Numbered from the stretch's first letter, positions 3,213 to 54,028 are shown. The stretch: 64,000 bases of DNA from a virus (IMGVR_UViG_3300013126_004149:1-64000), one strand, 5' to 3'. Numbers and translations are program-made. Notes: a model not told the origin generated them from the sequence alone.

Positions 3213-3631
3213 TGTATTCAATATTAGATTTTATTTTCAAATCAAAGATTGTAAAATATTTTCAAAATTATTATAAAGGAATAGTATTATTAAGAGAAAA
3301 AAGTTATTATTTAAATACATTATTATTAAAAATAATAATGATGTCAAAATCTATTTATATAACTAAGTGGTATGAAGATTTATACGATGTTTGTATAGAG
3401 ATTCAAAGTTCTACAAGATATAGTCAATCTATTTACTTAGATAATCTATCTTATGATGATCTAAACTCAATTGTTACTTCTATAAAAGAAAAATATGAAG
3501 AAGATGAAATAGAGAATGTTAATTTAGATTACTCAATATTATTTAAAGTGATTGACTTTTTATCTACTAAATTCAAAGAAAATAGTTTTGATAGTTCAAC
3601 TATTAGTGAAATAAAAAAGAGGTTAAACTAA
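3209..3631 (+). CDS. hypothetical protein, 140 aa
   Basis: Not recognised. The N-terminal 55 residues are hydrophobic and basic; the rest is acidic and probably helical, ending with a Lys-rich tail. Translationally coupled to the preceding gene by the ATGA overlap. Its TAA lies inside the 11-bp stem of the terminator shared with the converging DHH gene. Confidence 0.6.
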   Translation: MMYSILDFIFKSKIVKYFQNYYKGIVLLREKSYYLNTLLLKIIMMSKSIYITKWYEDLYDVCIEIQSSTRYSQSIYLDNLSYDDLNSIVTSIKEKYEEDEIENVNLDYSILFKVIDFLSTKFKENSFDSSTISEIKKRLN

Positions 3632-24886: not shown

Positions 24887-27800
24887 TTAACCTAATTTAG
24901 ATTTAACTGAGTTCCAATATCCTTTATAATCTTTTGGGTGTAGGTAATCTGAACTTGGTTCAAATCCTCCTAAAAATTTAAATCCATAATCTTTTGAGGT
25001 CTTTTCTAACCAATCATTACCACCACTTAAATTTGGATTTTTTTGAGGATTATTAGTTATTCCAATTACATAAACTTTACAACTATTTGATTTTAAAATT
25101 TCAAATTGTTGTTTTATATAATTTTTTGAAGAGTCGGTTCCTCCACCGTTTGAATACCCAGATGATAGAATTACGATTTTATTATTTAAACTAAAAGAAC
25201 TATCCTTTAAATATTCTAAAATTTCTTTTGGATTTGCTCCCACTTTTGATATTCCTTTATCATCTTTTGTATAATCTCCATTTCCACCAGCCTTTCTATT
25301 TAAACCAAGAGCATTTTTAGCTATCCCTGCAGCAATACTATCTCCGAATATATAATTCCAACTACCATCTGGTTGTTTTGTTACTTTATCCTTATTATTT
25401 GTATCAATTTTGCTTCCAGCATTATAATATTTAGTGAATATTTCATCATATACCTTATCACTAACTATTTTATGACCTGCTTGTGTTGGATGTATACCAT
25501 CTTTAGTAGCTCCATTTAAATCATATATTGGTATAAACTTTTTAACATTTTTAATATTTGGTAATAGATTTTGTAATTCTATTTTTCTTTTTATAAATGG
25601 TATCCAATCTTCGCTTTTTTCTTGATATTTAGTCGGTTGCATTAATTTATAATTACCAAATGCTCCAGTTCCTTTAAAATTTGGATCTTCAAATTTATAA
25701 CCTAAGTTAACAAATACATCAGCTCCTTGTGCAACACACATATCAACCATTTTCTGAATATTGGAAAGTGTATCAGTGTTTTTACCCTTTTTACTAGCGG
25801 ATGGTGTTAAGCTTATCTCATAAGATGAATTACTTGCATCATTACCACCACCATAAAACATAACTATATCATATTTCGTCTTTAATTGACCTGGTAAGTT
25901 TTCTATCATCCATGCAGTTGTTTGACCACCCTTAGCTAAAACATCCAATTCAACTCCAATTTCTTTTAATTTTGTTTTTAACATATTAGGATATGTATAT
26001 GTTATTGCTCCTGAATCTCCTTTGATAGCACTTTGTGAATCTCCGATAATTAACATCTTCTTACCTTTTAAATCAACTCCGGTATTTTTATTACCATCTG
26101 TTGTTTGTGTGATTGGTTCAGCCGGTTGAAATGTTGATAAGTCTTTTTTCATAGCATTTAGTTCGGCATCTCCTTCGTTAACATCAATAGTACCCTTTGG
26201 AATTTCTGGTAATTTTTCCTTTACATATTTTCTATATTCATCTGTATTTGGAATTATTTCTTTTATTTTTGTAGTAACATCAATCCCGTTTGGATTTATT
26301 CCAGTTATTTCTAGTATGAATACTCTATAAGTACTCATATAATCAGACTGTGTTATACCTAGTGATTTTATTTCTTGGTAATTTGTATTATTTCTAACTA
26401 CAAACTTATCACCTATACTATAAATACTATTTGGATTATCTCCTTTAATTGTATCATCTAATTTAGCGCCGGGTGGTAATGGATTAGGTGAGTTGTCCGT
26501 TTTTTTATCTTGTTTTGGTTTAGTGTCTGGTGAGGCCATTTCCTCTAAATTTTTACCTAACTCTTTTCTAGAAAGTGATAATAATTGTACCAACTTTTTA
26601 TTACTCCACACAAAACTTATTTCTGTGACAATATATTCACCGCTTTTTCTCCAATTCATTTGATCTTGGTTAGACATAGATGGTACAGGATTAACAAATT
26701 TAACATCTATCTTTTGATATAAATAGATTGAATAATTTGGATTTGATAACTCTACATCAAGACGAATTTTTTCCAAATCTCTTAAATTTCTTCTGTTTTG
26801 TGTCTTTGTATAGTTATAATTTTTATGAACATTATCAGTATCTATTTTACCACTATAACTATTGATTACACTATCTTCAAATGACTTTTTATCGTTTTCA
26901 TCGCCTTTTAATATTAAAGACTTAGATCCATCTGATGTTGTACCATCGACATCAAATATTAAAAACATTTTCTTAACTTTATCATAGAATTTTGTTTTAG
27001 TTCTTATCCCATCAGTTAAGTTTATTTTTGATGAATTATTTATAAAATTCTTTTCTTTAAAATATCTATTAGAGTTTTTTAATTTAACACCATCATCGTT
27101 TGTTAAAAATAGGCTTACTTTTTCTGTCGCGCTATCTGATTGTATTGGAGTATCTACGCAAACATCATTTTTAATATCTCTATTCATTTCCTTTTCAACA
27201 TCTACGAAGTTTAAACAATAGTAATAATCAATGAATCCTCTCATAAAAGACTTCTCACTAACATATGAATGTTTTATTATATCGTTTATAAACTTATGGT
27301 ATTTATCACCTACATTTCGCCATGACATCAAATCATCACTGGTTGTTATATTAGAGTTAAAACCTATTTCAATCTTTTTACAAATTTGACGTAAAGCATC
27401 AACTGATGTCCCAAGATATGATTGATAATCAATTTTATATAAATCTGGAACGTCAAGTGTTGCTAAAATTTGATATTTAGATTTTGATAGATTTTTAAAA
27501 TCTGTTATCCTAAATTGCATATTTATTGATTTTATTGAATTATCACCAGGACTTAAATAAAATCTAATCTTTTTATCATCTGTTGGTGGATTATCTTTAA
27601 ATATACTATTTGCGTCATTAAATATCATTTCAATTGATGGTAATATTCCATCATGATATAATTTCAAATAAGATATATCTTTTTCTTTAATAACTGATTG
27701 AGAGTCTACTCCATTCAATCTAAAGTTATAAATTACAAATGGTACTACTCCTATACCGGATGCGACAGCTAAGTTATCATTATCATTTGTGCTTAGTTTT

Positions 27801-28831
27801 AAATTAACTTCAGGTACCTTTATAGTTGGTTGATCTATTTGTGTTATAAATGCTCTTTCACCTTCAATTTTAACTGGAACATCTGGTTTTATAGTTGATT
27901 CCGGTTTTGCTTCTAAAACTTTTATCTTTATAGTTTTTGGTAAAATGTTATTCACCGTACTTTTTATCGTAATTGTGTATTCACCTGGTTCTTTAAATTC
28001 TAATCCCTTAAAAGTAGCTACTCCTTTTATAATCTCAACTTCTCCAATACCTAAAACTGGTCCAGGTCCACTATCAACTTTAAATATCATTTTTCCAGTT
28101 ATTTCATCTACTAGATCTTGTGGATTCTCATATTGTTTATCCTCCCATTGTGAAGTATCAGTTGGTGTTATGTTAAATGAAAAACTTGTTGTTGATCTCG
28201 GTCCTGAGTTATTTATTACTGGACTAACAGCTGGTATATTATTACTCACATCAAGTTTATTATTAACTGCAAGATTTAATAGCACATACGTCGTAAGTCC
28301 ATTTTTTTCAAACATTGGTATGGTGTCATAATATTTCTCTGTTTCATTACAAACTTGACATCCAGCTGACCATTCTCCTACTGTTTCTTTTGTTGATGTT
28401 GAGAGAGAATTATAGTCCATACCGTGGAAGTTAATTCCATATAAACCTTTTATTGGAGTTCCTATTTCCTCACTTTTACTATCTTTATCACCATCGCGAT
28501 ATATAATTAATGGGCCGACTTGTCGCAATGCTTTCATTTTACCTTGATGCATTCCAAATTTCCAAACATCATAATACCATTCATTTGATTTAACAACTGC
28601 TGCTCCAACTTTATTATATTTTAGAAATCCACCAGTCAGAACTGGAGTTCCTGGGTTAGTTGAACCTGTTAAACTTGTTAGAAATTTCTCACCTTGAAAT
28701 ATATAAAACATATCATCTGGCTTATTAACAATGTCAGCATCGTTACGCACGCCAAGGATCCAAATATTTTCAGGCACTTTTTTAAATGAACTAAGACTTT
28801 TAGCCTTTTCTAATAATTCAGATGTTGTCAT
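24887..28831 (-). CDS. gp27-like hub fused to L,D-transpeptidase-like and two SGNH domains
   Basis: 1314 aa, four parts. Residues about 60-200 (HQGKMKALRQVG, GLYGINFHG, EWSAGCQV) match the L,D-transpeptidase-like protein at 56801-57412. About 205-320 are beta-rich linkers. About 350-560 (YLGTSVDALRQICKKI, WRNVGDKYHKFINDII, FIDYYYCLNFVDV) resemble tail-hub proteins such as T4 gp27. About 970-1170 form an SGNH/GDSL hydrolase domain (IGDSQS, GGGNDAS, DGIHPT), and about 1180-1314 a second one (FGDSIAAG, SSGYSNGG, YLHP). SGNH enzymes remove ester-linked acyl or acetyl groups from sugars, so this hub could trim host surface polysaccharide at the contact site. First gene of the - strand block. Confidence 0.7.
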   Translation of the reverse strand: MTTSELLEKAKSLSSFKKVPENIWILGVRNDADIVNKPDDMFYIFQGEKFLTSLTGSTNPGTPVLTGGFLKYNKVGAAVVKSNEWYYDVWKFGMHQGKMKALRQVGPLIIYRDGDKDSKSEEIGTPIKGLYGINFHGMDYNSLSTSTKETVGEWSAGCQVCNETEKYYDTIPMFEKNGLTTYVLLNLAVNNKLDVSNNIPAVSPVINNSGPRSTTSFSFNITPTDTSQWEDKQYENPQDLVDEITGKMIFKVDSGPGPVLGIGEVEIIKGVATFKGLEFKEPGEYTITIKSTVNNILPKTIKIKVLEAKPESTIKPDVPVKIEGERAFITQIDQPTIKVPEVNLKLSTNDNDNLAVASGIGVVPFVIYNFRLNGVDSQSVIKEKDISYLKLYHDGILPSIEMIFNDANSIFKDNPPTDDKKIRFYLSPGDNSIKSINMQFRITDFKNLSKSKYQILATLDVPDLYKIDYQSYLGTSVDALRQICKKIEIGFNSNITTSDDLMSWRNVGDKYHKFINDIIKHSYVSEKSFMRGFIDYYYCLNFVDVEKEMNRDIKNDVCVDTPIQSDSATEKVSLFLTNDDGVKLKNSNRYFKEKNFINNSSKINLTDGIRTKTKFYDKVKKMFLIFDVDGTTSDGSKSLILKGDENDKKSFEDSVINSYSGKIDTDNVHKNYNYTKTQNRRNLRDLEKIRLDVELSNPNYSIYLYQKIDVKFVNPVPSMSNQDQMNWRKSGEYIVTEISFVWSNKKLVQLLSLSRKELGKNLEEMASPDTKPKQDKKTDNSPNPLPPGAKLDDTIKGDNPNSIYSIGDKFVVRNNTNYQEIKSLGITQSDYMSTYRVFILEITGINPNGIDVTTKIKEIIPNTDEYRKYVKEKLPEIPKGTIDVNEGDAELNAMKKDLSTFQPAEPITQTTDGNKNTGVDLKGKKMLIIGDSQSAIKGDSGAITYTYPNMLKTKLKEIGVELDVLAKGGQTTAWMIENLPGQLKTKYDIVMFYGGGNDASNSSYEISLTPSASKKGKNTDTLSNIQKMVDMCVAQGADVFVNLGYKFEDPNFKGTGAFGNYKLMQPTKYQEKSEDWIPFIKRKIELQNLLPNIKNVKKFIPIYDLNGATKDGIHPTQAGHKIVSDKVYDEIFTKYYNAGSKIDTNNKDKVTKQPDGSWNYIFGDSIAAGIAKNALGLNRKAGGNGDYTKDDKGISKVGANPKEILEYLKDSSFSLNNKIVILSSGYSNGGGTDSSKNYIKQQFEILKSNSCKVYVIGITNNPQKNPNLSGGNDWLEKTSKDYGFKFLGGFEPSSDYLHPKDYKGYWNSVKSKLG

Positions 28832-29078: not shown

Positions 29079-29342
29079 CTATAAATTGACTTTTATTATT
29101 TTATATGGATATTTCCTTTTAATATAAAAAGATTGTCTTTCTAAATAGTGTCTGTAAAGAGCGTTTCCTAAATCATCTTTTTTAAATATGTCTACTAAAT
29201 CAAAAATATTTACTTTATCTTTATCTGAATGTAGACGAAGACCCCTCCCTATTGATTGAATTATAATTTGTTCAGATTTAAATGAGTCTGCAAAAATAAC
29301 ATTGAATATTGCTCGTATGCTCACTCCTGTACTTAGTGTACC
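29079..29342 (-). CDS. uvsW: UvsW-like helicase, C-terminal piece (motifs V-VI)
   Basis: The frame gives GTLSTGVSIRAIFNVIF and, further on, IIIQSIGRGLRLH: motif V and the arginine-finger motif VI of SF2 helicases in the UvsW/RadD group. Coding similarity begins at GGT 29342-29340, right after the 17-nt gap, but the only start-like codon is a GTG at 29322-29324. Independent translation from that GTG would lose the first half of motif V, so joining to the upstream piece by recoding is more sensible. UvsW unwinds branched DNA and R-loops in T4 replication and recombination. Last piece of a four-piece gene. Confidence 0.75.
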   Translation of the reverse strand, partial: GTLSTGVSIRAIFNVIFADSFKSEQIIIQSIGRGLRLHSDKDKVNIFDLVDIFKKDDLGNALYRHYLERQSFYIKRKYPYKIIKVNL

Positions 29343-29359: not shown

Positions 29360-29431
29360 GTAAGAGGCGACTAAAACTTTAGTCGCCCCTTCTTCCCTAA
29401 TTTCTTTTCTTTTATCTACTATTCTAGCCAT
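29357..29431 (-). CDS. uvsW: UvsW-like helicase, 24-aa piece before motif V
   Basis: ATG at 29431 to TGA at 29357-29359. The product is 24 residues, KRKEIREEGATKVLVASY at its end. VLVASY is the first half of helicase motif V, whose second half is in the following piece. The first residues (DKRKEIREE) duplicate the segment RKREEIKKQ near the end of the preceding piece, so the break point is flanked by a duplicated coding segment. On its own the peptide could have no activity. Confidence 0.6.
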   Translation of the reverse strand: MARIVDKRKEIREEGATKVLVASY

Positions 29432-29442
29432 TTTAATAGTTT

Positions 29443-30234
29443 TTATTTATTTTTTCTGATTTTATCAATAAAATTATCATCAATATCATCATTTTCATCA
29501 ATATCTGAAGCCATCTTCCACTCACCATTTGAAAGTAAAATTTTAAAGTCAGATCTAACATCTATTGTATAATCTCCAAAATTAAGTATTGTATATTCAA
29601 CTTCTTTTTTGGTTATTTCCATTTGTTTTTTAATCTCTTCTCTTTTTCTACCACTAACTTCACCATCAATATAGTAAAATTCTTTATCTGGTATTTCGGC
29701 ACTCAACTTATTAAATATTTTTTGCCCATTTTCAATTGTGTGGAATAAAAGTAGAGTGTTATTATCACATTTTTGAACTAACTTTTTTATAAACTCCAAC
29801 CTCTTATCTGATTGGTGGATATACATCTTTTCAAAATCAAATGCTGCTTTACCATCACCACCCTTTCTTATTATTTTCAATCTTTCATGAAATTCAGAAT
29901 CTTCGTGGTTCATTAAAACCACTTTTATCTCCATTGGAGTTATTATTCCCTTTTTCTTCAATTCATCAGCAGTAACCTCTGTTATTTTTGGACCTAAAAC
30001 TGATTGTATTGTTAATATCTCACAAGTATCATCTGGTGGAGTTGTTCCACTTACGCCGAATCTAGAATAGGCATGTCCAAATGTATTCTCTAAAATATTA
30101 ATATATGTTTTAGCTTTGGCTTGGTGACAATTACTAACACATAATCCATCTGCAAAGTAATTATGATTATCTTTTATTCTTAAATTATAGACATCTCCGT
30201 CATATTTTATTTTTTCAATTTTATTAATTTTCAT
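29443..30234 (-). CDS. uvsW: intein C-half + UvsW helicase middle + Hint remnant
   Basis: 263 aa. Residues 1-35 are the C-terminal half of a split intein (VYNLRIKDNHNYFADG and LCVSN at the splice site). Residue 36 is the +1 Cys of the extein, CHQAKAKTY, completing helicase motif II (DECH). The helicase domain continues with SRFGVSGTTPP (motif III region) and LLLFHTIENGQ (motif IV region) to RKREEIKKQME at about residue 205. The last ~50 residues (YTIDVRSDFKILLSNGEWK, ASDIDENDDI) are not helicase but resemble the end of an intein N-domain, like LVNGEWKRVDELNEYDDI in the first intein. Thus a second, incomplete Hint element follows. Confidence 0.75.
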   Translation of the reverse strand: MKINKIEKIKYDGDVYNLRIKDNHNYFADGLCVSNCHQAKAKTYINILENTFGHAYSRFGVSGTTPPDDTCEILTIQSVLGPKITEVTADELKKKGIITPMEIKVVLMNHEDSEFHERLKIIRKGGDGKAAFDFEKMYIHQSDKRLEFIKKLVQKCDNNTLLLFHTIENGQKIFNKLSAEIPDKEFYYIDGEVSGRKREEIKKQMEITKKEVEYTILNFGDYTIDVRSDFKILLSNGEWKMASDIDENDDIDDNFIDKIRKNK

Positions 30235-31059
30235 CTATTTGTATCTTTTTATTTTTCTGATAATATTTTCTTTATCTGGTTGTTCATCTAATTTATGAAT
30301 ATTATTTTCAAAGTTTTCTAATATCCATTTTTCAGTTATATACTCATATTTGAATCCATTTATCGAACACCATTCTTTGGCATATTTACTTTTTATTTTA
30401 TTTTTTTCTAAATTTATTGAAGAATTTGGTTTTATTTCATATAATATTTTGTTTTCACAATCAATGAAATCTACTATGTAATTATGATTTTTATTTTTGA
30501 ATTTATATGGAATTACAATATCTTCATATTTTAAATTTAAATTGCAAATGTGAAAAAATGCTTCCCATGATGATCTATATTTTATTATTTCCCCATTTAT
30601 TGTTAGATAAGAAAATCCTTTATGCCAACTATTTGTTATATTTGGTTTGAATTCACCATTTTTAATTTTTTCTATCATTATTTGTGAGTTTTTATTACAC
30701 ATAGATTTAAATGATTCATCACTCATTCTATGACATGTGTTATTTTCTCCTCTTTGACGAATTGATATATGTTTTTTATAACATTCGTATGAACAATATT
30801 TTTTAAAACCGAAGTCTGTTCTATTATTATTTCTAATCCCTATAAATTCTCTTTTATTTGTACATCCGGATATTAGACATGTATCATCTATATTTTTAAG
30901 ATATTTAACAACATTTGATATTGTGATATCAAAGTTGAATTTTATATCATTTTTATTCAAGAATGATATTAATCTATCTTCTTTTTTACTTGAATTAAAT
31001 ATAGAAAACCTATTTTTATATATTAAATCGTATATATAATCTTTTTGACTTTGTTCCAT
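30235..31059 (-). CDS. endonuclease inside the split helicase intein
   Basis: 274 aa. A Cys-rich part near residues 55-100 (CLISGCTNKREF, KYCSYECYKKH) looks like a zinc finger. Residues about 165-260 carry YRSSWEAFFH, HNYIVDFIDCENKILYEIKP, NKIKSKYAKEWC and YEYITEKWI, the TnsA-like PD-(D/E)XK nuclease pattern (D..., E-x-K). The gene starts 17 nt after the helicase N-piece and stops exactly one base before the ATG of the next piece. So it replaces the homing endonuclease domain of an ordinary intein as a separate gene. It should promote spread of the intein allele by cutting inteinless helicase genes. Confidence 0.75.
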   Translation of the reverse strand: MEQSQKDYIYDLIYKNRFSIFNSSKKEDRLISFLNKNDIKFNFDITISNVVKYLKNIDDTCLISGCTNKREFIGIRNNNRTDFGFKKYCSYECYKKHISIRQRGENNTCHRMSDESFKSMCNKNSQIMIEKIKNGEFKPNITNSWHKGFSYLTINGEIIKYRSSWEAFFHICNLNLKYEDIVIPYKFKNKNHNYIVDFIDCENKILYEIKPNSSINLEKNKIKSKYAKEWCSINGFKYEYITEKWILENFENNIHKLDEQPDKENIIRKIKRYK

Positions 31060-31076
31060 GAGACTACATTTTTTAT

Positions 31077-32174
31077 TTATATATTTAAATTGAAATCTAA
31101 TATATCGTCATATTCATTCAACTCATCAACTCTTTTCCATTCACCATTAACTAAACGAACTTTATGGTTGCCGGTTATGCGAATTTTTTGACCATTTTCC
31201 ATAGTTAATAAAAATATTTCATCGGTATTTGTCAAGTTTTTATAGACATATTCAACCTCCTTATTCTCAATTAAATTTGTTGTTTCGTTTATAGTCTTAA
31301 CAAAGTCACCAATTTTAACATCGGATATTTTTTTAGTACTACCATCTGCCATATTTATCAATGTGTCTGGATGAAGACATTCGTCTGTAATGACTGTATG
31401 AAATTGTTTAAAGAAATCTTTCGGCCATTTCTCAAGTGATTGATAGGTGCCAATATAAACATTTGGATTTTCAGTTCCTGTATATTTTCTTGGTCTATCA
31501 GACATAACTTCTTCAACTCTTACCTCACATGGTCCCATATCACCATCTAATAATTGAGATAGTTTATTATCTCTCATTTGTTCTAATGTATTAACACCAT
31601 AATTATATTCAACTATGTTATCGTAAAATTGCGTAACTAACGTAATAGATGGTACTATAATAAGAAACTTAGCATCTGGTTTAATCTTTTTTAAAGTGTA
31701 AAACATTACAATAGATATAATCAATGATTTACCACCTGATGTTGCAACTTCAGCCATACAAAATCTATTTTTAAGTATTCTATATGCTGCGTCTATTTGA
31801 TGATCGTAAGGCATGAATGGTATCCATTGCCCTTCTCCATTTTTAACTTTATGGTTTTTAAAGAATTCTTTACAAAAATTTTGTACATCTTCTAATGTTA
31901 TATCTCTGTTTATTGGAAAATCTTCTTTATTTTCTATTTGAAAAGAGACTTCTATTTCTTTACATCCTTTAAGAGCTTCTCTCCAAAGACCAAGATTTAT
32001 TCTCCCATTTCTAAAATATGATTTTTTACCATCCCAAACTCCCATTTTCACGGCAGGTTGAAATCTCCAACCTTTAACGTGGCGTGTCAACCAAAGTTCC
32101 ATTTGGTGGTATTCTATTCGAGTTGCTTCTGATACAACTAACTCTTCTTTAATCTTATCATATCTAAACTTCAT
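31077..32174 (-). CDS. uvsW: UvsW-like helicase N-terminal part + split-intein N-half
   Basis: 365 aa. The N-terminal ~60 residues (HVKGWRFQPAVKMGVWDGK) match the small DNA-binding domain of T4 UvsW. Then PYDHQIDAA (Q motif), VATSGGKS (Walker A, about 143-150), LIIVPSITLVTQF (motif Ia) and VITDE (motif II, about 261-265). At residue 266 an intein starts with CLHPDTLINMADGST and runs to the stop at 365, including GNHKVRLVNGEWK (block B). Splicing with the C-half downstream would rejoin DE and CH, the core of motif II. Start chosen at ATG 32174, where the UvsW N-domain begins. Confidence 0.9.
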   Translation of the reverse strand: MKFRYDKIKEELVVSEATRIEYHQMELWLTRHVKGWRFQPAVKMGVWDGKKSYFRNGRINLGLWREALKGCKEIEVSFQIENKEDFPINRDITLEDVQNFCKEFFKNHKVKNGEGQWIPFMPYDHQIDAAYRILKNRFCMAEVATSGGKSLIISIVMFYTLKKIKPDAKFLIIVPSITLVTQFYDNIVEYNYGVNTLEQMRDNKLSQLLDGDMGPCEVRVEEVMSDRPRKYTGTENPNVYIGTYQSLEKWPKDFFKQFHTVITDECLHPDTLINMADGSTKKISDVKIGDFVKTINETTNLIENKEVEYVYKNLTNTDEIFLLTMENGQKIRITGNHKVRLVNGEWKRVDELNEYDDILDFNLNI

Positions 32175-32668: not shown

Positions 32669-33652
32669 TTAAGAAACTAAACTAAAATTTTCTACAATTA
32701 TATCAACAATTTCTTGTCCAATTCTATCTTGAGCTTCATTTGTAGCAGCTCCGATATGTGGTGTTGATAAAATATTAGGATGTGATAATAACTCTTTCAT
32801 TGGAGTTGGCTCATTTTCAAACACATCTAATGCTGCTCCAGCAACTTTACCATTATTTAAATATTCAATCAATTCTACTTCATTAACTACTCCACCTCTT
32901 GATGTATTGATAATTCTAACACCATCTTTCATCATTTCAAACTCTCTTTTACTAAAAACAGAATTTCCATTTGATTGTTTAGGAACGTGTAATGAAATAT
33001 AATCACATATTGGTAAAATCTCATCAATATTTGTTTTAACATTAATGGAATAAGAGTGGTGATTTTGAACTTGTTCTCCGGTGGATGATGTCCAATTAAT
33101 ACTCATTGGTATATAAACTTTTTTATCTTCAATGTCAATAGCTACTACTTTCATACCAATACCAAGTGCGTAAGAAGCTAAAGTTTGTCCAATTCTTCCA
33201 AATCCAACAATACCTAAAGTTTTACCTCTTAATTCAACACCTGTTCCGTATTCTTTTTTAAGTTTATTAAAGTCTCCGTTTTCAATATTCTTAGCTGACT
33301 TTCCAATAAATCTTGAAATAGCAAACATATTACCGATTACTAATTCAGCAACTGATTGTGATGAAGATGCTGGTGTGTTAAAAACGAAAACTCCTTTTTC
33401 TCTAGCATAGTCAACATCAATATTATCAACACCTACTCCACCTCTACCAATAAATTTGATGTTAGGACAACCATCAATAATATCTTTTCTAATTTTAGTT
33501 GCACTTCTAACTAAAATACCTTCATAATTTTCTTCATTGATTTTAGTTATTAAGTCTTCCTGGTTTACTTTTTCTGTAATTACTGTGTAGCCTTTTTCTT
33601 CTAATTGAATTTTAGCTTCGTTTGAAATTCCATCATTCGCTAATATTTTCAT
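32669..33652 (-). CDS. serA: D-3-phosphoglycerate dehydrogenase-like enzyme (SerA-type)
   Basis: 327 aa. The NAD-binding motif GIVGFGRIGQ (about residues 148-157), VGVDNIDVDYA, and the catalytic Arg (NTSRGGVV), Glu (ENEPTP) and His (STPHIGAAT) are all present, so it should be active as a D-2-hydroxyacid dehydrogenase. The length and motif register fit the short SerA without ACT domain, the first enzyme of serine synthesis (3-phosphoglycerate to phosphohydroxypyruvate). Other 2-hydroxyacid substrates are possible. Its start overlaps the end of the methyltransferase gene by 20 nt. A host-derived metabolic gene. Confidence 0.85.
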   Translation of the reverse strand: MKILANDGISNEAKIQLEEKGYTVITEKVNQEDLITKINEENYEGILVRSATKIRKDIIDGCPNIKFIGRGGVGVDNIDVDYAREKGVFVFNTPASSSQSVAELVIGNMFAISRFIGKSAKNIENGDFNKLKKEYGTGVELRGKTLGIVGFGRIGQTLASYALGIGMKVVAIDIEDKKVYIPMSINWTSSTGEQVQNHHSYSINVKTNIDEILPICDYISLHVPKQSNGNSVFSKREFEMMKDGVRIINTSRGGVVNEVELIEYLNNGKVAGAALDVFENEPTPMKELLSHPNILSTPHIGAATNEAQDRIGQEIVDIIVENFSLVS

Positions 33653-34409
33653 AATTTAAATTTTTATTTTTTAATAATTCTATAGATTTATTATAGTGAT
33701 TTGTATCTATTTCTGATCCTATAAAGTTTAGTTTATTTTTAAAACATGCTCTTGCTGTTGTTCCAATTCCCATAAATGGATCATAAATTAAACTCCCCTC
33801 AGGGAAATAAATATTAATAAGTTTTGTAACAAGGTCTTCTGAATATGTTGCTTTTAATTTTGTTTTAATGCCATCGTTATTTTTAGCATCTATTAAGTTA
33901 ACATAATTCTTATAAAACTTTTGTCCTGTTTTTTCGTTTATTTTGCTAATCTTTTTATTAGCTTTAAAGTCGTGAAGGTGTTTTTTCTTAACAATAACAT
34001 ATATTTGTTCGCAAATTCTAGATAGTTTAGTAGGACTTGTCTGAAAAGGTAGTGATGTTGATTTCTTCCAAGTTATCATATCTGCTAATGTTAAATCTGT
34101 CTCTTGGTGAATTCTAGTCATTAAGAGAGTTGGTAATATTGGGTTTTCATTATGATATGAAAGATTATAACATATTACACCTCTATCATTTAAAATTCTA
34201 GAAAACTCTTTAAATTCAGCAACTCTGATATCTAAATACTCGTTTTCTGGGAGACCATCTAATTGCGAATACCCATTATCATAATAGGTATCTTTTCTCT
34301 TTGTACTTATATTATATGGTGGACTAGTTATTACCCCATCAACAGTACCATCTAATATTCTATACATGGTTAAAATATTACTTTCATTATAAATTCTATT
34401 ATTTTCCAT
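33633..34409 (-). CDS. DNA methyltransferase (N6-A or N4-C), beta class
   Basis: 258 aa. Motif IV TSPPYN lies near the N-terminus (about residues 38-43), and the AdoMet motif I region DPFMGIGTTARAC near the C-terminus (about 217-229), with SEIDTNHY following. That order is typical of beta-class amino-methyltransferases. TSPPY is shared by N4-cytosine and some N6-adenine enzymes. It may protect phage DNA from host restriction. It overlaps both neighbours (11 nt upstream, 20 nt downstream). The adjacent 149-aa gene shows no restriction-nuclease motif, so it looks like an orphan enzyme. Confidence 0.85.
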   Translation of the reverse strand: MENNRIYNESNILTMYRILDGTVDGVITSPPYNISTKRKDTYYDNGYSQLDGLPENEYLDIRVAEFKEFSRILNDRGVICYNLSYHNENPILPTLLMTRIHQETDLTLADMITWKKSTSLPFQTSPTKLSRICEQIYVIVKKKHLHDFKANKKISKINEKTGQKFYKNYVNLIDAKNNDGIKTKLKATYSEDLVTKLINIYFPEGSLIYDPFMGIGTTARACFKNKLNFIGSEIDTNHYNKSIELLKNKNLNYENISE

Positions 34410-35760: not shown

Positions 35761-36438
35761 TTATTTTCTATTTTGTATGATTTCATCTATTAATCCATAT
35801 TTCTTTGCATCATTTGAATTCAACCAATAGTCTCTCTCGCTGTCTTTATAAACTTTGTCATATGTCTGTCCGGTTTTTTCTGAAATTATTTCGTATAATT
35901 CTTTCTTCAAAGAATTTATCTCTTTTGCCTCGATTTCTATATCGGTTGCTTGAGAGTACCCGCTATACGTACTCGGTTGGTGGATCATGGTCCTGCTTCT
36001 TCTGAGAGCTTTTCTTTTACCCTTTGTTCCAGAGCAAAGAATAACTGCTGCCATCGAAGCAGCTAACCCGGTGTTAACTGTTACGATATCAGGCTTAACG
36101 AAGTCCATAACATCTAATAATCCTAGACCAGAGTAAACACTACCACCCCCTGAATCAATATAAATTTTAATATCTTTATCGCTTTCCAATTCTAAGAAAA
36201 GAAGTTGAGCTTTAATTAGATTGCATGTATAATCATCTACTTCTGTTGAAAGAAAAATAATTCTATCATCTAAAAGTTTAGAAAAGACATCAACTTGCAT
36301 TCCATTTCCTTCGATAAGGAGTGATGTATTATTGTTTTGGACTCTTTTATTTACTACTTTAAAATAATCATCAAAAACACTACTAGATACATTATTATCT
36401 CTCATATGAGATTTTAACATTCTTTCTATTCTATTCAT
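35761..36438 (-). CDS. clpP: ClpP-like serine protease
   Basis: 225 aa. The catalytic triad context is complete: GLAASMAAVI (Ser128), RTMIHQPS (His153) and an Asp near 204 in RDYWLNSNDAKKYGLID, plus IDSGGGSVYSGLGL for the oxyanion region. It would form a barrel-shaped peptidase. No Clp ATPase gene is visible here, so it may use a host ATPase or act alone. Because no separate prohead protease is seen in this window and the divergent neighbour is an acidic core-like protein, a role in head maturation is possible, as ClpP-like folds serve so in other phages (inference). Confidence 0.85.
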   Translation of the reverse strand: MNRIERMLKSHMRDNNVSSSVFDDYFKVVNKRVQNNNTSLLIEGNGMQVDVFSKLLDDRIIFLSTEVDDYTCNLIKAQLLFLELESDKDIKIYIDSGGGSVYSGLGLLDVMDFVKPDIVTVNTGLAASMAAVILCSGTKGKRKALRRSRTMIHQPSTYSGYSQATDIEIEAKEINSLKKELYEIISEKTGQTYDKVYKDSERDYWLNSNDAKKYGLIDEIIQNRK

Positions 36439-37283: not shown

Positions 37284-38018
37284 ATGTTAATAGATAATGA
37301 AATTAATATTAGAATAAATAATTTAAATAGGGATATTTATCCAAATAATAATTATGGTGAATATATAAATATAAATATAAAAGATTTACCTATCGGTAGT
37401 GGTATTTTAGTTAATGTTAAGTGTGATTTTTGTGATTTTATTAAAAAAATTCAATATAGAAAATATGTTAAAAATACTAAAAACTTCACGGTAGAATATT
37501 CTTGTTCTAATAAATGTTCAATATCAAAATATAGAAAAACATGTTTAGATAGATATGGTGTAGATAATACTACAAAATTACCAGAAAACTTAGAAAAGAT
37601 GAAAAAAACATGTTTAGATAGATATGGTGTGGATAACCCATTAAAAGATGAGTTTATAAAAAATAAAGTAGTTACATCAAGAATTAAAAATGGTAAAAGT
37701 TCAGGTAAAGTTTCTGAATATTCTAAGTTTAGGAATAAATGTAGAAATATAACTTTTTCAAAAAAGAAAGAATTATTATCTCTCTGGGATGGATATGATT
37801 ATTATGATGGTGAATATATAGGTAATAATTGGGGAAAATCCCCTTTAGATGCAAATTATCCTACAATTGAACATAAGATATCAATATTAGAAGGATTTTT
37901 AAATAAAATAGACATTAACATAATATGTGATATTAATAATCTGTGTTTTTGTAAAAGATCTATAAATTCATCTCTAAATTCTCTGACTTTTGGTGAAAAA
38001 TTAAAAAAAAATGAATAA
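37284..38018 (+). CDS. HNH-type homing endonuclease with repeats
   Basis: 244 aa. Two repeats KTCLDRYGVDN (about residues 89-130) are the DNA-binding type seen in phage nucleases. A Cys pair in KCDFCDF and CSNKCS may bind zinc. The C-terminal ~90 residues (WDGYDYYDGEYI, YPTIEHKISILEGF, NNLCFCKRSINS) carry the H, N and N of an HNH core. It is homologous over its length to the protein at 49852-50952. It sits as a cassette between the zinc-ribbon and HAD genes with only 3 and 2 nt of spacing. Confidence 0.75.
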   Translation: MLIDNEINIRINNLNRDIYPNNNYGEYININIKDLPIGSGILVNVKCDFCDFIKKIQYRKYVKNTKNFTVEYSCSNKCSISKYRKTCLDRYGVDNTTKLPENLEKMKKTCLDRYGVDNPLKDEFIKNKVVTSRIKNGKSSGKVSEYSKFRNKCRNITFSKKKELLSLWDGYDYYDGEYIGNNWGKSPLDANYPTIEHKISILEGFLNKIDINIICDINNLCFCKRSINSSLNSLTFGEKLKKNE

Positions 38019-46642: not shown

Positions 46643-46672
46643 AAAAGAGGGTTATTTCTAACCCTCTTTTTT
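46641..46672. terminator. bidirectional terminator
   Basis: AAAAGAGGGTTA (46643-46654), loop TTTC, TAACCCTCTTTT (46659-46670), between the nuclease gene and the polymerase 3' end. Confidence 0.85.
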
Positions 46673-47879
46673 ATTTTCCAAATCCACTGAATATGTCCAT
46701 CACAATAGATAATCTCTCTGTTATCTCCGGCATTCCCAATGGTTCAATAATTGAGTTTATTGGGGATAAGATACTCTTAGCAAACTGGAGGTCATAATCA
46801 ATAAGAGGGGCGAACTCTATTGGATATGATCCCCTTATATAAGCAAAAATATCACCATTTGATTTATTCTTACAATAATAATATTTAATCTTTGTTCCAG
46901 ATTTAATCATTTCATACTTATCAGCATACTTTTTATTTGTATGTAAAAGATAATTATAAAGAGCTGCAGCCTTAACTGCAAAATGAGATCCACCCACAAA
47001 CTCAAGCGGTAATGTCTTATCATTAAGAACCTTATTCTCATAATTTGAACAAGATGATTGCATCGCTATATCATCAATATCAGCTAACTCAAACTCTTTT
47101 CTTAAATCTTTAACTAATTTAAGTAAATCTTTAATGTTAAATGTATCTGGATGTTCAAATAAATACCTAACAATTCCAACAATTTTCTCTCTAGCAAAAA
47201 GAGGAGTTGACGATCTAACTAATTCCACACCTTTAGGGAATAAATAGTTAAATCTATCAAATGGAATACCATCTTCATAAAGAATATGTTGAATATATTT
47301 CTTCTTAGCGATTGATATAATCGATTCAGATATCCTCTCTAACTCAAAATCCTCTTTATTCTCTACACCAAATCCAGCCGCATATTCCTCTAAACACTTT
47401 TTAAAATACCCACCATATCTAAAATGATCTATACCCTGTATATAATCTAACTCACTAGACCAATTCCATTGTATATCACATGTAAATACTCCAGAATCTA
47501 TTAATTTAATTAAATCCCAGTTTTTAACGAAATGACCATCTATTATTATCTCTTTATAATCCAACTTTAACAACTCCTTAAATTCATCTATGTTTTTTGC
47601 TATTCCTAAACATTTATCATTATCACAATTTATCTCATTATTTGTTAAAATAATAAAATTATTCTCTTTCCAGTCTAAATCATTAATTATTAAATCTCTC
47701 CAATTTGAATGATCCATGGCTGGTTTAAATGATACAAAAAGTGAATTATGAACTAATATATCATTAGCTATAAAAGTATGTGTCTCATCATCAACTTCCA
47801 CATCATATACATACTCATCATCAAAAAATCCAATTTGCTCACAAGACTCAATTTCCTCTATTATGTAATTTTTATTCAT
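46671..47879 (-). CDS. split-intein C-half + DNA polymerase C-terminal part
   Basis: 402 aa. Residues 1-45 are an intein C-half: DEYVYDVEVDDETHTFIAN (block F) and ILVHN at the splice point, with Ser46 as +1 residue. The extein SLFVSFKPA continues polymerase motif C right after the YADTDS of the N-piece. KKKYIQHILYEDG (about residues 205-217) and FAREKIVGIVRYLF belong to the palm-thumb region of gp43-like B-family polymerases. It ends DIFSGFGK, a plausible clamp-binding tail. It overlaps the nuclease gene by 8 nt. After protein trans-splicing the active site (DTDS) would be complete. Confidence 0.85.
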   Translation of the reverse strand: MNKNYIIEEIESCEQIGFFDDEYVYDVEVDDETHTFIANDILVHNSLFVSFKPAMDHSNWRDLIINDLDWKENNFIILTNNEINCDNDKCLGIAKNIDEFKELLKLDYKEIIIDGHFVKNWDLIKLIDSGVFTCDIQWNWSSELDYIQGIDHFRYGGYFKKCLEEYAAGFGVENKEDFELERISESIISIAKKKYIQHILYEDGIPFDRFNYLFPKGVELVRSSTPLFAREKIVGIVRYLFEHPDTFNIKDLLKLVKDLRKEFELADIDDIAMQSSCSNYENKVLNDKTLPLEFVGGSHFAVKAAALYNYLLHTNKKYADKYEMIKSGTKIKYYYCKNKSNGDIFAYIRGSYPIEFAPLIDYDLQFAKSILSPINSIIEPLGMPEITERLSIVMDIFSGFGK

Positions 47880-48981
47880 ATATTTCCTTTATTATTTTAT
47901 CAACCGTTATATCTATACCATCTCTATTTAAATCATCTTCCCAAATTATAATTAATTTTTTTAGTTTTGTTCTTAAAAAATCATTCTTAATTCTATCCTT
48001 TTCCCATATATCCTTTGCATTTAGACCACTTTCTAATGGAAATGGCATATCATCTGATTTATATTTTTTTGGATTAGCATGCCAAATATCTCCATTAAAC
48101 TCTATCCCTATATTTAATTCTCTTATGAAAAAATCTATTAGATAATATTTTTTATTTTCCTTATCATATGAGTACCACTCTTTATCCTTATAATAAATTC
48201 TATATGTTCCTTTATCTTGAATTCTAGATATCAATTCATCAAATAGTTTTATAGATAATTTTGAATAACCACTATTGAATAGTCTTTTTTTGCAAAAATC
48301 ATCATATATATTTTGACCGGCAAAATCGCCATGTTTTTCCATGAAATATTCAACAGTTGTTGTGTATTTTTGTCTATCGCAATAATCCATCCATTTTTTT
48401 AAACCCAATTCTTCTCCATGTCTATTTACTAAATTTTCAATAGTTACAGATCTTGATTTATTATATTCTTTAAATTCTTCTTTGGTCCAACCATATTTTT
48501 CTCTTTTATATTCAAATGTGTTTGTTAAAGCTTGTTTATCTCTATAAACTTTCCATTTTTTTGAACCTATTTCACTTCCCCATTTTTTAATTAGATTTTC
48601 TTCAGTTATAGCATACTTGTTTTTCATCCATATTAAAGCAGTTTCATGATCTATACCAAATGCGTATTCTGTAATATAATTCATCTGATTAAAAACCCTA
48701 GATTTATTCTTTTCAGAATACTCTGGATATTTTTCGGTTAAACAATCTTCACAAACATTTAAATAATAACACTTATCGACATTTTTAGAAGTTAAAAAAG
48801 ATTTACCCTTTGGTTGAATTTCTTTTGATTTAAAAGTAAATGTAGAATCATAATAATATATTATATCATTACAAATTCTACATTTTGGTTTATCTGAAAA
48901 ATATTGATTAAATATTTCTCTATAACTATCTTTACTTTTATTTTTATTAAAATATTCTATAAATTCTTTATTAGTTTTCAT
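47872..48981 (-). CDS. Vsr-like endonuclease inside the split polymerase intein
   Basis: 369 aa from ATG 48981 (a GTG lies 2 codons upstream). The N-terminal part has CRICNDI and VCEDC, a possible zinc site; the middle has repeats NLIKKWGSEIGSKKWKVY and NLVNRHGEELGLKKWMDY. Residues about 275-350 carry YYLIDFFIRELNIGIEFNG, IWHANP and LIIIWEDD, the EDxHD/Vsr-like nuclease fold, as in the gene at 5441. It lies exactly between the two intein halves, with its own promoter-like motif TTTTTATATATACTAA. This is the layout described for fractured genes, where the nuclease gene is free-standing between split-intein halves. Confidence 0.8.
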   Translation of the reverse strand: MKTNKEFIEYFNKNKSKDSYREIFNQYFSDKPKCRICNDIIYYYDSTFTFKSKEIQPKGKSFLTSKNVDKCYYLNVCEDCLTEKYPEYSEKNKSRVFNQMNYITEYAFGIDHETALIWMKNKYAITEENLIKKWGSEIGSKKWKVYRDKQALTNTFEYKREKYGWTKEEFKEYNKSRSVTIENLVNRHGEELGLKKWMDYCDRQKYTTTVEYFMEKHGDFAGQNIYDDFCKKRLFNSGYSKLSIKLFDELISRIQDKGTYRIYYKDKEWYSYDKENKKYYLIDFFIRELNIGIEFNGDIWHANPKKYKSDDMPFPLESGLNAKDIWEKDRIKNDFLRTKLKKLIIIWEDDLNRDGIDITVDKIIKEIYE

Positions 48982-49029
48982 ATACACAGATACTTTTATT
49001 AGTATATATAAAAACTAAAACTGTCCCTT

Positions 49030-49650
49030 TTAAAAAACTGATAGTATTTTATCTGTTTTTAAAACTTCCGAAGGTTTAACTTCAATTTTAACACCATCTC
49101 TAAATACTATCATTGAATGATCATTAGTTACTATAACTTCTTTACCTGACTTTGTTTTTAATCTCCATTTAGCTTTACTAACCTTATGTCTTATAATCCT
49201 TTTAACAGGTGCATAATATAAATTACCATCATCCGAATAGTTTAATATCCTATCAATAGTTAATACCGATTCGTGTCCTTTAAGTGTTTCTCCTGCGGAA
49301 CCATTTTTAATATTGTTATTATACCATTCTTCAATGGTTAATCTACCATTTTCGGTTTGTATAATTGATCCTGAAAAACAAGAATCCGTATCAGCATAGA
49401 TGCTCACAGGCTCAGTTTTATTAACTTGTGTTATGTTTTTGATGCACAAATTTTTATGTAATTCGTGATCTAAGTGCCATTGGTTATACCAATAGTCCTC
49501 ATTTACTTTATCCATTGTTTTAGTTAGGTCTCTTCCTTGGGCTGTTATTGTGCCGGCGACCCAATTATTAAATAGAATAAAGTATGGTGTTGCAAATGCT
49601 CCATAAGAGCCGTTAAGAACGCGGTTTTTCCTCCCCCCATGATTACTCAC
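49030..49650 (-). CDS. DNA polymerase middle part (motifs B-C) + split-intein N-half
   Basis: The frame opens at a GTG (49650), but polymerase similarity starts at VLNGSYGAFATPYF (motif B) and goes to IYADTDS (motif C, residues 84-90). Residue 91 starts an intein, CFSGSIIQT, with GKEVIVTNDHSMIVFRDG as block B, running to the stop (116 aa). Between the helical part of the fingers and this piece lies the 43-nt gap. Without the gap the sequence would read ALKLVLNGSYG, the exact K-x-x-x-N-x-x-Y-G motif B. Family: T4 gp43-like B polymerases, which copy the phage genome. Confidence 0.85.
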   Translation of the reverse strand: MSNHGGRKNRVLNGSYGAFATPYFILFNNWVAGTITAQGRDLTKTMDKVNEDYWYNQWHLDHELHKNLCIKNITQVNKTEPVSIYADTDSCFSGSIIQTENGRLTIEEWYNNNIKNGSAGETLKGHESVLTIDRILNYSDDGNLYYAPVKRIIRHKVSKAKWRLKTKSGKEVIVTNDHSMIVFRDGVKIEVKPSEVLKTDKILSVF

Positions 49651-49663
49651 AGGGGGAGTATCA
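49621..49663 (-). other. 43-nt gap between matched GTT codons in polymerase motif B
   Basis: On the - strand: AAG CTG GTT, then TGA opens a 43-nt segment, then GTT CTT AAC GGC resumes motif B. GTT stands both as last codon before and as first codon position of the resumed frame. The segment holds a 7-bp hairpin CTCCCCC/GGGGGAG (GC-rich in an AT-rich genome), and the perfect hairpin CAGCTT-TG-AAGCTG ends directly before the first GTT. The layout equals that of the T4 gene 60 bypass (matched codons, stop after take-off, hairpin in the gap). Confidence 0.8.
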
Positions 49664-49774
49664 AACCAGCTTCAAAGCTGTTTGGATGGCATTATAATAA
49701 TCTGCCTCCTTTTTCAGCTCCGAAGCTTTTATTCTTAATGACTCTATCTCTTTTAATTTTTCATCCTTAGTCAT
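49661..49774 (-). CDS. DNA polymerase fingers piece, 37 aa
   Basis: ATG at 49774 to TGA at 49661-49663. The product (MTKDEKLKEIESLRIKASEL, ending ADYYNAIQTALKLV) has the helical character of the fingers of B-family polymerases; Y-x-A-x-Q-x-A-x-K directly precedes motif B in this family. An in-frame stop lies 18 nt upstream of the ATG, so this is where the coding unit starts. No exonuclease/N-terminal half is present upstream; it must be elsewhere in the genome. Divided gp43 (43A/43B) is known in T4-like Aeromonas phages. Confidence 0.65.
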   Translation of the reverse strand: MTKDEKLKEIESLRIKASELKKEADYYNAIQTALKLV

Positions 49775-49851: not shown

Positions 49852-50952
49852 ATGATTAAGGAAAGTAAAGTTTTGGTTAAAATAAATATTAGAAATAAGA
49901 GTCATTATTTAAATTTAGGGTATTTAATATCTAACGAAATAGAAGTGAAAGTTGATGACTTACCAAATGGTTCTAAAATTAAAATAACTGCTATTTGTGA
50001 ATTATGTGGATCTGAAAATTATATACCATATTCCAAATATTTAATTAATAAAAATAGAAAAGATAAAGGATATTACTCTTGTTTTAGTTGCAAAAATCAT
50101 ATTAAAGAAAAAACATGTATGGAAAAGTGGGGAGTTAAATCATATTCAATGACTGATGAATTTAAATTATCTGAAAGTTTTAAATGGAAAGGAATTAAAA
50201 AAGGATCTGAAAAGGGTAAAAAAACTATGATGAGTAAATATGGTGTTGATTCATATTTCAAAACTGATGAAATTCGTGAAATGAATAGAAAGTGGATGTC
50301 TTCTGATGAATTTAAACAAAAATCTAAAAATACTTTAATTAATAAATATGGTGTTGATTCTTATTCAAAAACAGATGATTTTAAATATAAATTAGAATTT
50401 AAAATGCATGAAACAGTAGAAAAAATTAAAAATACATTTAAAAATAAATATGGTGATGAATATTTATCAAAAACAGAATATTGGAAAGAGATTTTTAAAT
50501 CTAAAGTAGAAAGTACTATTGAAAAGTGTAAAGAAACTTGTTTGAAAAAATATGGTGTTGATAATGTTAGTAAGGTTGAATTTATTAAAGATAGGATAAA
50601 AAATATAAAAGAAGTAAGTGGTATTATAATACCTGATTCTGAAATTGATGCCTGGTCTATGTATAAAAGAAATGTTAGAAGAATAACAAATAATAACAAA
50701 AAGAAACTTTATGAAGATTGGACAGGATATGATTATTATGATGATGAATATATCAAAGGATATTTATCTAACACACATACTCATAGATTTTATCCAACAA
50801 TTGATCATAAAATATCTGTTTATTATGGATTTAAAAATTCAATAGATCCCAGTATAATAGGATCTATCGATAATCTATGTATAACTAAGAGATTTATAAA
50901 TTCGACTAAATCAAAATTAACAGAAAGTGAGTTTAATTATAAAGAATCTTGA
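49852..50952 (+). CDS. HNH-type homing endonuclease with repeats
   Basis: 366 aa. The N-terminal part has two Cys pairs (ICELCGS and SCFSCKN), then five repeats of the CLKKYGVDNVSK / MSKYGVDSYFKTDE type (about residues 90-250). The C-terminal ~90 residues (WTGYDYYDDEYIKGY, YPTIDHKISVYYGF, DNLCITKRFINSTKS) hold the HNH core. Homologous to the protein at 37284-38018, with more repeats. It stands at the 5' side of the divided polymerase gene, where it may have caused the split. Its end overlaps the converging membrane-protein gene by 16 nt. Confidence 0.75.
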   Translation: MIKESKVLVKINIRNKSHYLNLGYLISNEIEVKVDDLPNGSKIKITAICELCGSENYIPYSKYLINKNRKDKGYYSCFSCKNHIKEKTCMEKWGVKSYSMTDEFKLSESFKWKGIKKGSEKGKKTMMSKYGVDSYFKTDEIREMNRKWMSSDEFKQKSKNTLINKYGVDSYSKTDDFKYKLEFKMHETVEKIKNTFKNKYGDEYLSKTEYWKEIFKSKVESTIEKCKETCLKKYGVDNVSKVEFIKDRIKNIKEVSGIIIPDSEIDAWSMYKRNVRRITNNNKKKLYEDWTGYDYYDDEYIKGYLSNTHTHRFYPTIDHKISVYYGFKNSIDPSIIGSIDNLCITKRFINSTKSKLTESEFNYKES

Positions 50953-52908: not shown

Positions 52909-52943
52909 TAAAAAACCACTATTTTTAAAATAGTGGTTTTTCT
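52909..52943. terminator. bidirectional terminator
   Basis: AAAAACCACTATTTT (52911-52925) and AAAATAGTGGTTTTT (52927-52941), a 15-bp stem, related to the ACCACTC family. Between the acidic protein and the converging aminotransferase. Confidence 0.85.
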
Positions 52944-54028
52944 TTTGAGAACATCTTATCAAAATATTCTTTGAATAATTCGTGTCTAACAGCCACTGAT
53001 ATTCTGCTACAATTTTCATGTTCTCTTTTTTTCATATTTGCAAAATTATTAAGAGGAACGCTAGATATTCTCCAATTTAACAATTGTTCATATCCAACAT
53101 TAATAACAGCAAATGGTCCAATTGGTCTTTGTGTATAGTTATCAAATAAGAGGTTATTATCTTCTAAATAATCTATATTCTTTTTAATATTTTCAATTGT
53201 TTCATTTTTATAATTCTCTACTACTTTTTTATCATCTAATAATTTTGATATAACATATTGTGGTAAAATAGAAGTAGAATTCCATTTATAAAGTGCTTTT
53301 GTTCTTAAAACTTTAAATAGTGTTTTGTTTTTTGTTGCTATATAACCAACTCTATATCCAGACAATCCCAATGATTTAGAAAAAGAACTAACTAATATTA
53401 CATTATCATGTAATGATTCTACAAGACCATCATCTCCTTTATTAAAAAGATGGTAATATGGCAGATCTAATATAACAGTTGTATTATTTTCTTTTGTCCA
53501 ATTAAGAAAATCTTTTATAGTTTCTAAACTTGGTGTATATCCAGTTGGGTTTGATGGATAACAAAGCATAACTATACCATCTTTTCTATGTTTATAAGAA
53601 TCTATAAATGGTTTCAAATCGAAATCATCAAAAGTGTATATTTTTTTATTATGTGTTTTTAATATCTTATTCCAAGATCCCCAATGGAAATTAGGTATAT
53701 AAACATTCTCATCACCTAATGAATTAATAATTAAGTCTAGAGCTGCCATTCCACCTGGTGTTACTATAACTTGGTGATTTTCTAAATTAAAATTATCTTT
53801 TATTTTTTTTACCAATTCTGGGTATCCATCGTTACCTGTGTATTGTTGTAATTTTGGATCGTTAAAATTTAATTTTAAATTTAAGGAATTGATATCTATA
53901 TTTGTGACATCCATAACTCCTCTGTGTAATTTTAAGTATTTAAGTCCTGATTCTTCTTCTAATTTCTGGACATCTTCACCTATTTTAACTATTGATGAAT
54001 AGGTTACATTTATTTCTGGTATATTCAT
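52925..54028 (-). CDS. PLP-dependent aminotransferase, fold type I
   Basis: 367 aa. YTGNDGYPELVKKI, PGGMAALDLII, CYPSNPTGYTPS, ILDLPYYHLF (Asp that holds the pyridine ring) and SFSKSLGLSGYRVGYI (Lys that binds PLP, about residue 225) are in correct order for class I/II aminotransferases. The C-terminal Arg that binds substrate may be that in SRISVAVRH. It moves an amino group between an amino acid and a 2-oxo acid; the substrate is unclear. It is not a SerC-type enzyme by motif. Coupled to the upstream 118-aa gene by a 4-nt overlap. Confidence 0.85.
   Translation of the reverse strand: MNIPEINVTYSSIVKIGEDVQKLEEESGLKYLKLHRGVMDVTNIDINSLNLKLNFNDPKLQQYTGNDGYPELVKKIKDNFNLENHQVIVTPGGMAALDLIINSLGDENVYIPNFHWGSWNKILKTHNKKIYTFDDFDLKPFIDSYKHRKDGIVMLCYPSNPTGYTPSLETIKDFLNWTKENNTTVILDLPYYHLFNKGDDGLVESLHDNVILVSSFSKSLGLSGYRVGYIATKNKTLFKVLRTKALYKWNSTSILPQYVISKLLDDKKVVENYKNETIENIKKNIDYLEDNNLLFDNYTQRPIGPFAVINVGYEQLLNWRISSVPLNNFANMKKREHENCSRISVAVRHELFKEYFDKMFSKEKPLF

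Follow-up and report, generated by a model that had tools for sequence, protein, structure and literature searches.

In fractured genes of the gp41-1 and NrdJ-1 type, a conserved motif is interrupted by a split intein whose halves flank an endonuclease gene. Among phages, to our knowledge, translational bypassing has for many years been well proven for gene 60 of T4 alone. Gene 60 has been called apparently unique among T4-related phages, and a 2016 review notes a long-standing presumption that there are counterparts with matched codons and shorter gaps (PMC3014915, PMC5009743). On gene 60, the ribosome is proposed to be driven forward by a hairpin that folds again behind it (PMC5009743, PMC11194080). 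Here, we describe the uvsW helicase gene of an uncultured huge phage, represented by a stretch of 64,000 nucleotides (nt), IMGVR_UViG_3300013126_004149:1-64000 (the window, to which all coordinates refer; the uvsW pieces lie on its minus strand). In this gene, protein trans-splicing is likely to be combined with ribosome bypassing of the T4 gene 60 type, and the elements responsible would have spread as mobile cassettes.

The uvsW gene is split in motif II by an intein with an N-half (IntN) and a C-half (IntC), and its 3′ part is broken a second time, at 29610-29340. This second break was missed in the preliminary description of the locus, which implied that splicing alone restores the helicase. 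That model fails: the spliced protein would end after a foreign tail of 55 amino acids (aa), and because the last 111 residues are encoded by a separate open reading frame (ORF), itself broken by TGA and a 17-nt gap, trans-splicing alone cannot complete UvsW. The parts of the second break are as follows.

29443..29610, minus strand: foreign 55-aa tail (KKEVEYTILNFG..IRKNK) plus stop codon, seen only in fractured or formerly fractured uvsW genes
29360..29431, minus strand: head ORF of the UvsW C-fragment (MARIVDKRKEIREEGATKVLVASY), 24 codons, with a new ATG at 29431 and ending in VASY; conserved in 9 other loci
29362..29391, minus strand: 13-bp 5′ stem-loop (AAGGGGCGACTAA, AGTT, TTAGTCGCCTCTT) that abuts the candidate take-off codon
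29343..29359, minus strand: 17-nt non-coding gap (TGAGCCCCAGGGAGTAA) with UGA first and a TAA triplet before the resume codon; present at the same point in 8 other lineages
29079..29342, minus strand: C-terminal 87 aa of UvsW (GTLSTGVSIRAIFN.., motifs V and VI) in a different frame; matches phrog_9690 (6e-18) and is under purifying selection

The take-off codon in the window is TAC (29362-29360). After the gap, coding restarts with GGTACACTA.., corresponding to GTLSTGVSIRAIFN.. (GTLSTGV), and continues in the new frame to 29079; intact relatives are uninterrupted here (..KVLVASFGTLSTGV). An altered genetic code was rejected, since TGA terminates three genes of the window and its reassignment would not restore the frames.

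Nine lineages, including the window, break at the same uvsW codon and continue at the same resume residue. The gap sequences are TGAC, TGAGGAC (twice), TGAGAAC, TGAGTAC (twice), TGAGTAG, TAGTAA and the 17 nt of the window, corresponding to net shifts of +1 (4 nt), 0 (6 nt), +1 (7 nt) and +2 (17 nt). At all 9 loci, a stop codon directly follows the take-off codon, and resumption restores the conserved protein. Because gaps of 4, 6, 7 and 17 nt give three frame relations yet one resume residue, the uvsW transcript is probably recoded. The tail, head and break recur in related contigs; in L012, uvsW is split with no gap, and in L013, the tail is fused in frame, again with no gap. Pattern matches at L101, L103 and L114 were discarded as chance. 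A second uvsW copy was not found in 11 records, which are incomplete.

A perfect hairpin of 11-13 bp is present just before the stop codon at 9/9 gap loci, with its 3′ arm abutting the take-off codon. Its minimum free energy ranges from -16.1 to -23.1 at the gap loci, compared with a mean of -3.5 and a minimum of -7.8 for 39 intact uvsW controls. When the codons were resampled, versions as stable as the natural sequence appeared 0-6 times in 4000 for seven loci and 48 and 64 times in 4000 for the other two; the hairpin of L012, which has no gap, is unexceptional by this measure. Stem pairing across the uvsW loci is 97.4%, with compensatory changes, compared with 37-57% when the stem is slid. 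The codons downstream of the gap are under strong purifying selection, with nonsynonymous change (pN) at 0.12-0.27 and synonymous change (pS) at 0.68-0.99.

The foreign tail may derive from an intein half that has decayed and now serves to join two chains. It gave no match in the GenBank phage collection or PHROGs and no credible match in Pfam, and a search of genome contigs with its 55 aa likewise returned no match. In an alignment, 29446-29610 pairs with the end of the IntN profile (hhalign probability 87%, pairwise E 4e-6), without block A or the TGNH motif. An AlphaFold model of the fused UvsW of L013 was unusable, with a predicted local distance difference test score of ~25 for the tail.

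A hairpin scan of the window revealed a break in a further gene, that for a family B DNA polymerase. This gene is itself split by an intein at DTDS/C, with the C-half ending ..LVHN/S (slashes mark intein-extein junctions), in agreement with the second fractured gene reported for the same record in the preliminary description. Its parts are as follows.

49664..49774, minus strand: head of the polymerase C-part gene (MTKDEKLKEIESL..AIQTALKLV), 37 codons; contiguous with LNGSYGAF in 14 intact relatives, which are uninterrupted at this point
49618..49663, minus strand: candidate bypass, a 46-nt gap with a 12-bp GTAA-loop hairpin (49658-49631) and landing codon GTT; coding resumes with CTTAACGGC (LNGSYGAF)
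46671..49617, minus strand: remainder of the polymerase with the YADTDS/C split intein; IntC and the C-part lie at 46671-47879 and a second nuclease ORF at 47872-48987

The take-off codon in the window is GTT (49666-49664), followed by TGA. At least 24 contigs, including the window, carry 21 distinct polymerase inserts, 36-48 nt long and located after codon 33, 34, 37, 40, 41 or 42. When the insert is deleted, 22-23 of 23 consensus residues are recovered, and the protein is restored in 21/21 cases. Insert lengths fall into all three frames (8, 9 and 4 inserts with lengths of 0, 1 and 2 modulo 3), and a stop codon lies at most 2 codons from take-off in 18/21. Every gap contains a hairpin with a stem of 8-12 pairs that starts 6-8 nt into the gap with its C run first; stem pairs past the fifth vary freely while pairing is kept. 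Take-off and landing codons are synonymous in 15/21 inserts, compared with ~6% for random gap triplets. The other 6/21 all have Tyr take-off codons, and in five of these the landing codon is AAC, GAC or TAA. Downstream of the insert, the median pN/pS is 0.18. In sister contigs, the insert is found at different codons or is absent. Because the GenBank phage polymerase records among the matches listed are in one piece, with no insert, no cultured phage with this insert is known. Other CCCC..GGGG hairpins in the contigs are mostly terminator-like or lie inside open frames, and there was no further bypass among them.

The nuclease encoded within the polymerase intein (47872-48987) is Vsr/EDxHD-like by eye (EFNGDIWHANP) and gave no match to a Pfam hidden Markov model (HMM). 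Three ORFs of the window (5441-7198, 37284-38018 and 49852-50952) share PF24308 (DUF7487), the last of them adjoining the head of the polymerase bypass; they may be homing-type genes.

From the anatomy of the locus and by comparison with known systems, we infer a hop in uvsW and propose the following explanation. A split intein with a TnsA-like putative homing endonuclease would have homed into uvsW motif II, and its halves would trans-splice after translation to give ..TDECH... A second mobile cassette would have invaded motif V, giving the upstream piece its foreign tail and the downstream piece its new ATG; the tailed N-piece and the C-piece of UvsW presumably assemble non-covalently. For the downstream piece to be completed, ribosomes arriving at UAC-UGA would have to stop decoding, skip 17 nt and take up translation again at GGU, giving a product with the junction peptide ..VLVASYGTLSTG... 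The stem-loop 5′ of the take-off codon would close again behind the ribosome and drive it forward, like the 5′ stem-loop of gene 60. The insert plausibly arose, or was kept, because it destroys the nuclease target and would thus confer immunity to the endonuclease. Polymerase genes of the same phage group would harbour a sister class of bypass elements, in which the gap itself contains the hairpin and the landing codon is cognate, and hopping in the window would yield a polymerase containing ALKLVLNGSYG. The most economical reading of the sequence is that UvsW here depends on protein trans-splicing, on two chains being reassembled and on a ribosome hop.

A split intein and nothing else unusual, with trans-splicing of the two halves giving complete UvsW, describes L017, in which the C-half runs uninterrupted to the end of UvsW; the C-half ORFs of L040 and L050-L053 are also open to the end. 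For the window, where the C-half stops after the tail and the last 87 aa lie beyond a TGA and a frame change, this explanation is very unlikely and, barring several assembly errors, already refuted by the sequence. A programmed +1 frameshift of the RF2-like type (UAY UGA N), in which a one-base slip at the stop codon adds one or two residues, would join the frames at loci with TGAC, TGAGGAC, TGAGAAC or TGAGTAC. Such a shift cannot work in the window, where the gap is 17 nt and the frame wrong, in L072 and L073, which have TAG in the +1 frame, or in L099, which has two in-frame stop codons; it would place the extra residues inside motif V, and it leaves the 36-48-nt polymerase inserts in all three frames unexplained. 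We therefore regard frameshifting as very unlikely. Several observations nevertheless weigh against bypassing. Simple +1 frameshifting could also read 4/7 distinct uvsW gaps (the 4-nt gap and three 7-nt gaps), and the triplet before the resume codon is a Tyr codon in only 2/9 loci, with TAY matched at 2 of 3 positions in the rest. The uvsW head has 24 codons and is shorter than that of gene 60, which has 46. All records are metagenome assemblies, mostly incomplete, and an exact search for the 17-nt junction of the window found it in this single record and in none of the other viral contigs.

These last points would suit a decaying uvsW pseudogene or an assembly or sequencing error, as the window is a single metagenome contig. 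Decay or artefact is nonetheless highly improbable given the break at the same base in eight other lineages, the conserved hairpins, the strong purifying selection on both sides and the 21 analogous polymerase inserts. Reinitiation after the stop codon, which would make the C-terminal piece a separate polypeptide, could use a GTG at TGVSI in the window, L010 and L011. The start codon is not conserved, however, being GTA in L049 and L069 and GTC in L090 and L099, and reinitiation would part the two halves of motif V and render the head ORF senseless, all of which leaves it with very little probability indeed. Phages can carry RNA ligases, and with hairpins present, the ribosome might never meet the inserts because they are excised from the mRNA, for instance through cleavage of the hairpin followed by ligation. 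Stop codons at the take-off point and cognate landing codons are not expected under excision, and no known intron is as short as the uvsW gaps of 4-7 nt; we consider this explanation exceedingly improbable. We thus favour trans-splicing combined with ribosome bypassing. Huge phages would then probably carry a mobile family of bypass elements with a short-gap, 5′-hairpin class in uvsW and a class with 36-48-nt gaps and gap hairpins at six codons of polymerase motif B. Such elements would be inserted, lost and reinserted in replication genes, tolerated because ribosomes hop, and both the helicase and the polymerase of the window would need trans-splicing and a hop.

The distribution of the uvsW elements points to mobility. 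On the UvsW tree, gap loci occur at scattered positions (7 changes), and a single clade of all fractured loci was rejected by the approximately unbiased test (p-AU 1e-39). Third-position identity is higher in the first half of the head than in the codons after the gap in 36/36 locus pairs. Both patterns fit a moving cassette that ends at the gap, like the T4 mobA/gene 60 pair (PMC5009743). A complete HNH gene, putatively for a homing endonuclease, lies between tail and head in L010 and L011; other loci have a remnant or none, and in the window cassette, the nuclease gene is gone. No relatives of this nuclease were found in other genes beyond L010 and L011. Just 5′ of the nuclease start, a decayed exon copy (..TLSTGVSIN-like) is visible in L010 (5693-5760), L011 (5680-5730) and L118 (~4920-4958); cassette insertion therefore appears to have duplicated the target region. 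In L012, unrelated ORFs (5700-7070) are inserted in the HNH nuclease remnant of the cassette.

The first fracture of uvsW, in motif II, comprises the following features.

31380..32174, minus strand: UvsW N-extein, 265 aa, up to ..VITDE; DEAD (2e-11) and UvsW_N matches, with a contiguous homologue in LR756502
31077..31379 (coding 31379-31080), minus strand: IntN, 100 aa plus stop codon, with Cys1 and the block-B motif TGNH; PF14890, TIGR01445
30235..31059, minus strand: TnsA-like PD-(D/E)XK endonuclease, 274 aa, between the intein halves; PF08722 (Tn7_TnsA-like_N) at 2e-7, above cut-off
30130..30234, minus strand: IntC, 35 aa, ending in VSN; PF14890, TIGR01443; the +1 extein Cys lies at 30127-30129
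29611..30129, minus strand: UvsW middle extein, from CHQAKAK to ..KKQMEIT; tblastn match to huge-phage UvsW

The two intein halves lie on separate ORFs at one extein point, which is empty in relatives. ORF 32174-31077 (minus strand) encodes the N-part of UvsW followed by IntN (..HTVITDE/CLHPDTLIN..), and ORF 30234-29443 (minus strand) opens with IntC, followed by extein (..LCVSN/CHQAKAK..). Because HMMs match IntN (Intein_splicing 8e-9, TIGR01445 5e-9), IntC (Intein_splicing 4e-9, TIGR01443 3e-5) and the endonuclease, the split-intein observation is not due to chance. The insertion point is exact because the closest records, LR756502 (642 kb) and LR745206 (635 kb), have an uninterrupted motif II (..TDEAHGAKAK..). 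Cys1 and TGNH (block-B T-x-x-H) of IntN are invariant in 8 homologues, and the IntN profile matches the homologous DnaB and NrdJ-1 intein structures. IntC ends with the Asn and nucleophile (..VSN/C), its penultimate residue being Ser in the window and His in S16 and PM2. The catalytic E-D-ExK core and the four zinc-finger cysteines (C-x4-C/C-x3-C) of the endonuclease are invariant in 5 homologues, and the best Foldseek neighbours of its model were TnsA (probability 1.00, E 0.015) and then I-Bth0305I, with modest scores. The preliminary description had placed a split intein exactly at DE/CH in motif II, with a TnsA-like zinc-finger nuclease gene spaced by 17 nt and 0 nt between its halves. The ORF coordinates and the HMM matches to both halves bear out the position and the spacings, and the PF08722 match with the invariant core and cysteines upholds the nuclease assignment.

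As a system, the uvsW split-intein arrangement is not new and represents a recurrent mobile split intein. The same gene order occurs at the same uvsW codon in Salmonella phages S16 and STP4-a, Proteus phage PM2 and Prevotella Lak-B phages, and the unit is also present in the huge-phage loci L040/L041, L050-L053, L060 and L017; in L017, an additional small ORF (3241-3444) lies between the TnsA-like nuclease and IntC. Because the same unit at the same codon is already present in GenBank phages and other huge-phage contigs, the intein is only weakly interesting as a new arrangement.

Other genes of the window encode a DNA methylase, a ClpP protease, an aminotransferase and an M42 peptidase (33633-34409, 35761-36438, 52925-54028 and 54449-55540, respectively). 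The product of 32669-33652 is 2-hydroxyacid dehydrogenase-like by eye, and downstream of uvsW, 24887-28831 encodes a 1314-aa protein with a GDSL lipase domain.

We found no earlier report of these bypass elements in the open-access literature, subscription papers lying outside the search. Gene callers break essential phage genes at such inserts. If bypassing occurs as proposed, ~30 natural elements that differ in gap length, take-off codon and hairpin position would allow comparison where only one case was available, reveal the features that are truly required for bypassing and open the connection between homing endonucleases and bypass inserts to testing.

The uvsW split intein shares gene, codon, gene order and nuclease family (32-39% identity) with those of S16, PM2 and Lak-B, whose C-halves run in one frame through motif V, whereas that of the window does not. 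Like the gp41-1 and NrdJ-1 fractured genes, it lies in a conserved motif and its halves flank an endonuclease gene, and its IntN profile matches the NrdJ-1 structure; unlike them, it has a TnsA-like PD-(D/E)XK nuclease with a zinc finger, plus a second fracture and a candidate bypass. Fragmented NrdA of phage Aeh1 is similar in that a homing endonuclease (mobE) splits the gene and the pieces reassemble (PMC2988022), but unlike for uvsW here, no bypass is known there. Many short inserts with sometimes imperfectly matched take-off and landing codons also characterize the bypassing elements (byps) of Magnusiomyces (PMC5009743); those elements reside in yeast mitochondria with relaxed decoding, whereas the present ones involve phage replication genes, stop codons and homing endonucleases. 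A close parallel is T4 gene 60/mobA, with a stop codon after the take-off codon, stem-loops and resumption in another frame (PMC5009743, PMC3014915). The cognate landing codon, in the polymerase class, and the position within a split gene, 24-43 codons from the start of its C-part, also resemble gene 60, and, as in gene 60/mobA, the uvsW elements are linked to an HNH homing endonuclease (EKHHILP; EIHHILP in T4) and the gene is fractured in a conserved motif. The gap of gene 60 is 50 nt and its take-off codon GGA, whereas uvsW gaps are 4-17 nt and the take-off codon is UAY. In contrast to gene 60, uvsW has one long 5′ stem-loop abutting the take-off codon and no gap hairpin, and the polymerase class differs in its 36-48-nt gaps with a hairpin in the gap. 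Overall, dozens of elements are found here, compared with the one of T4 gene 60.
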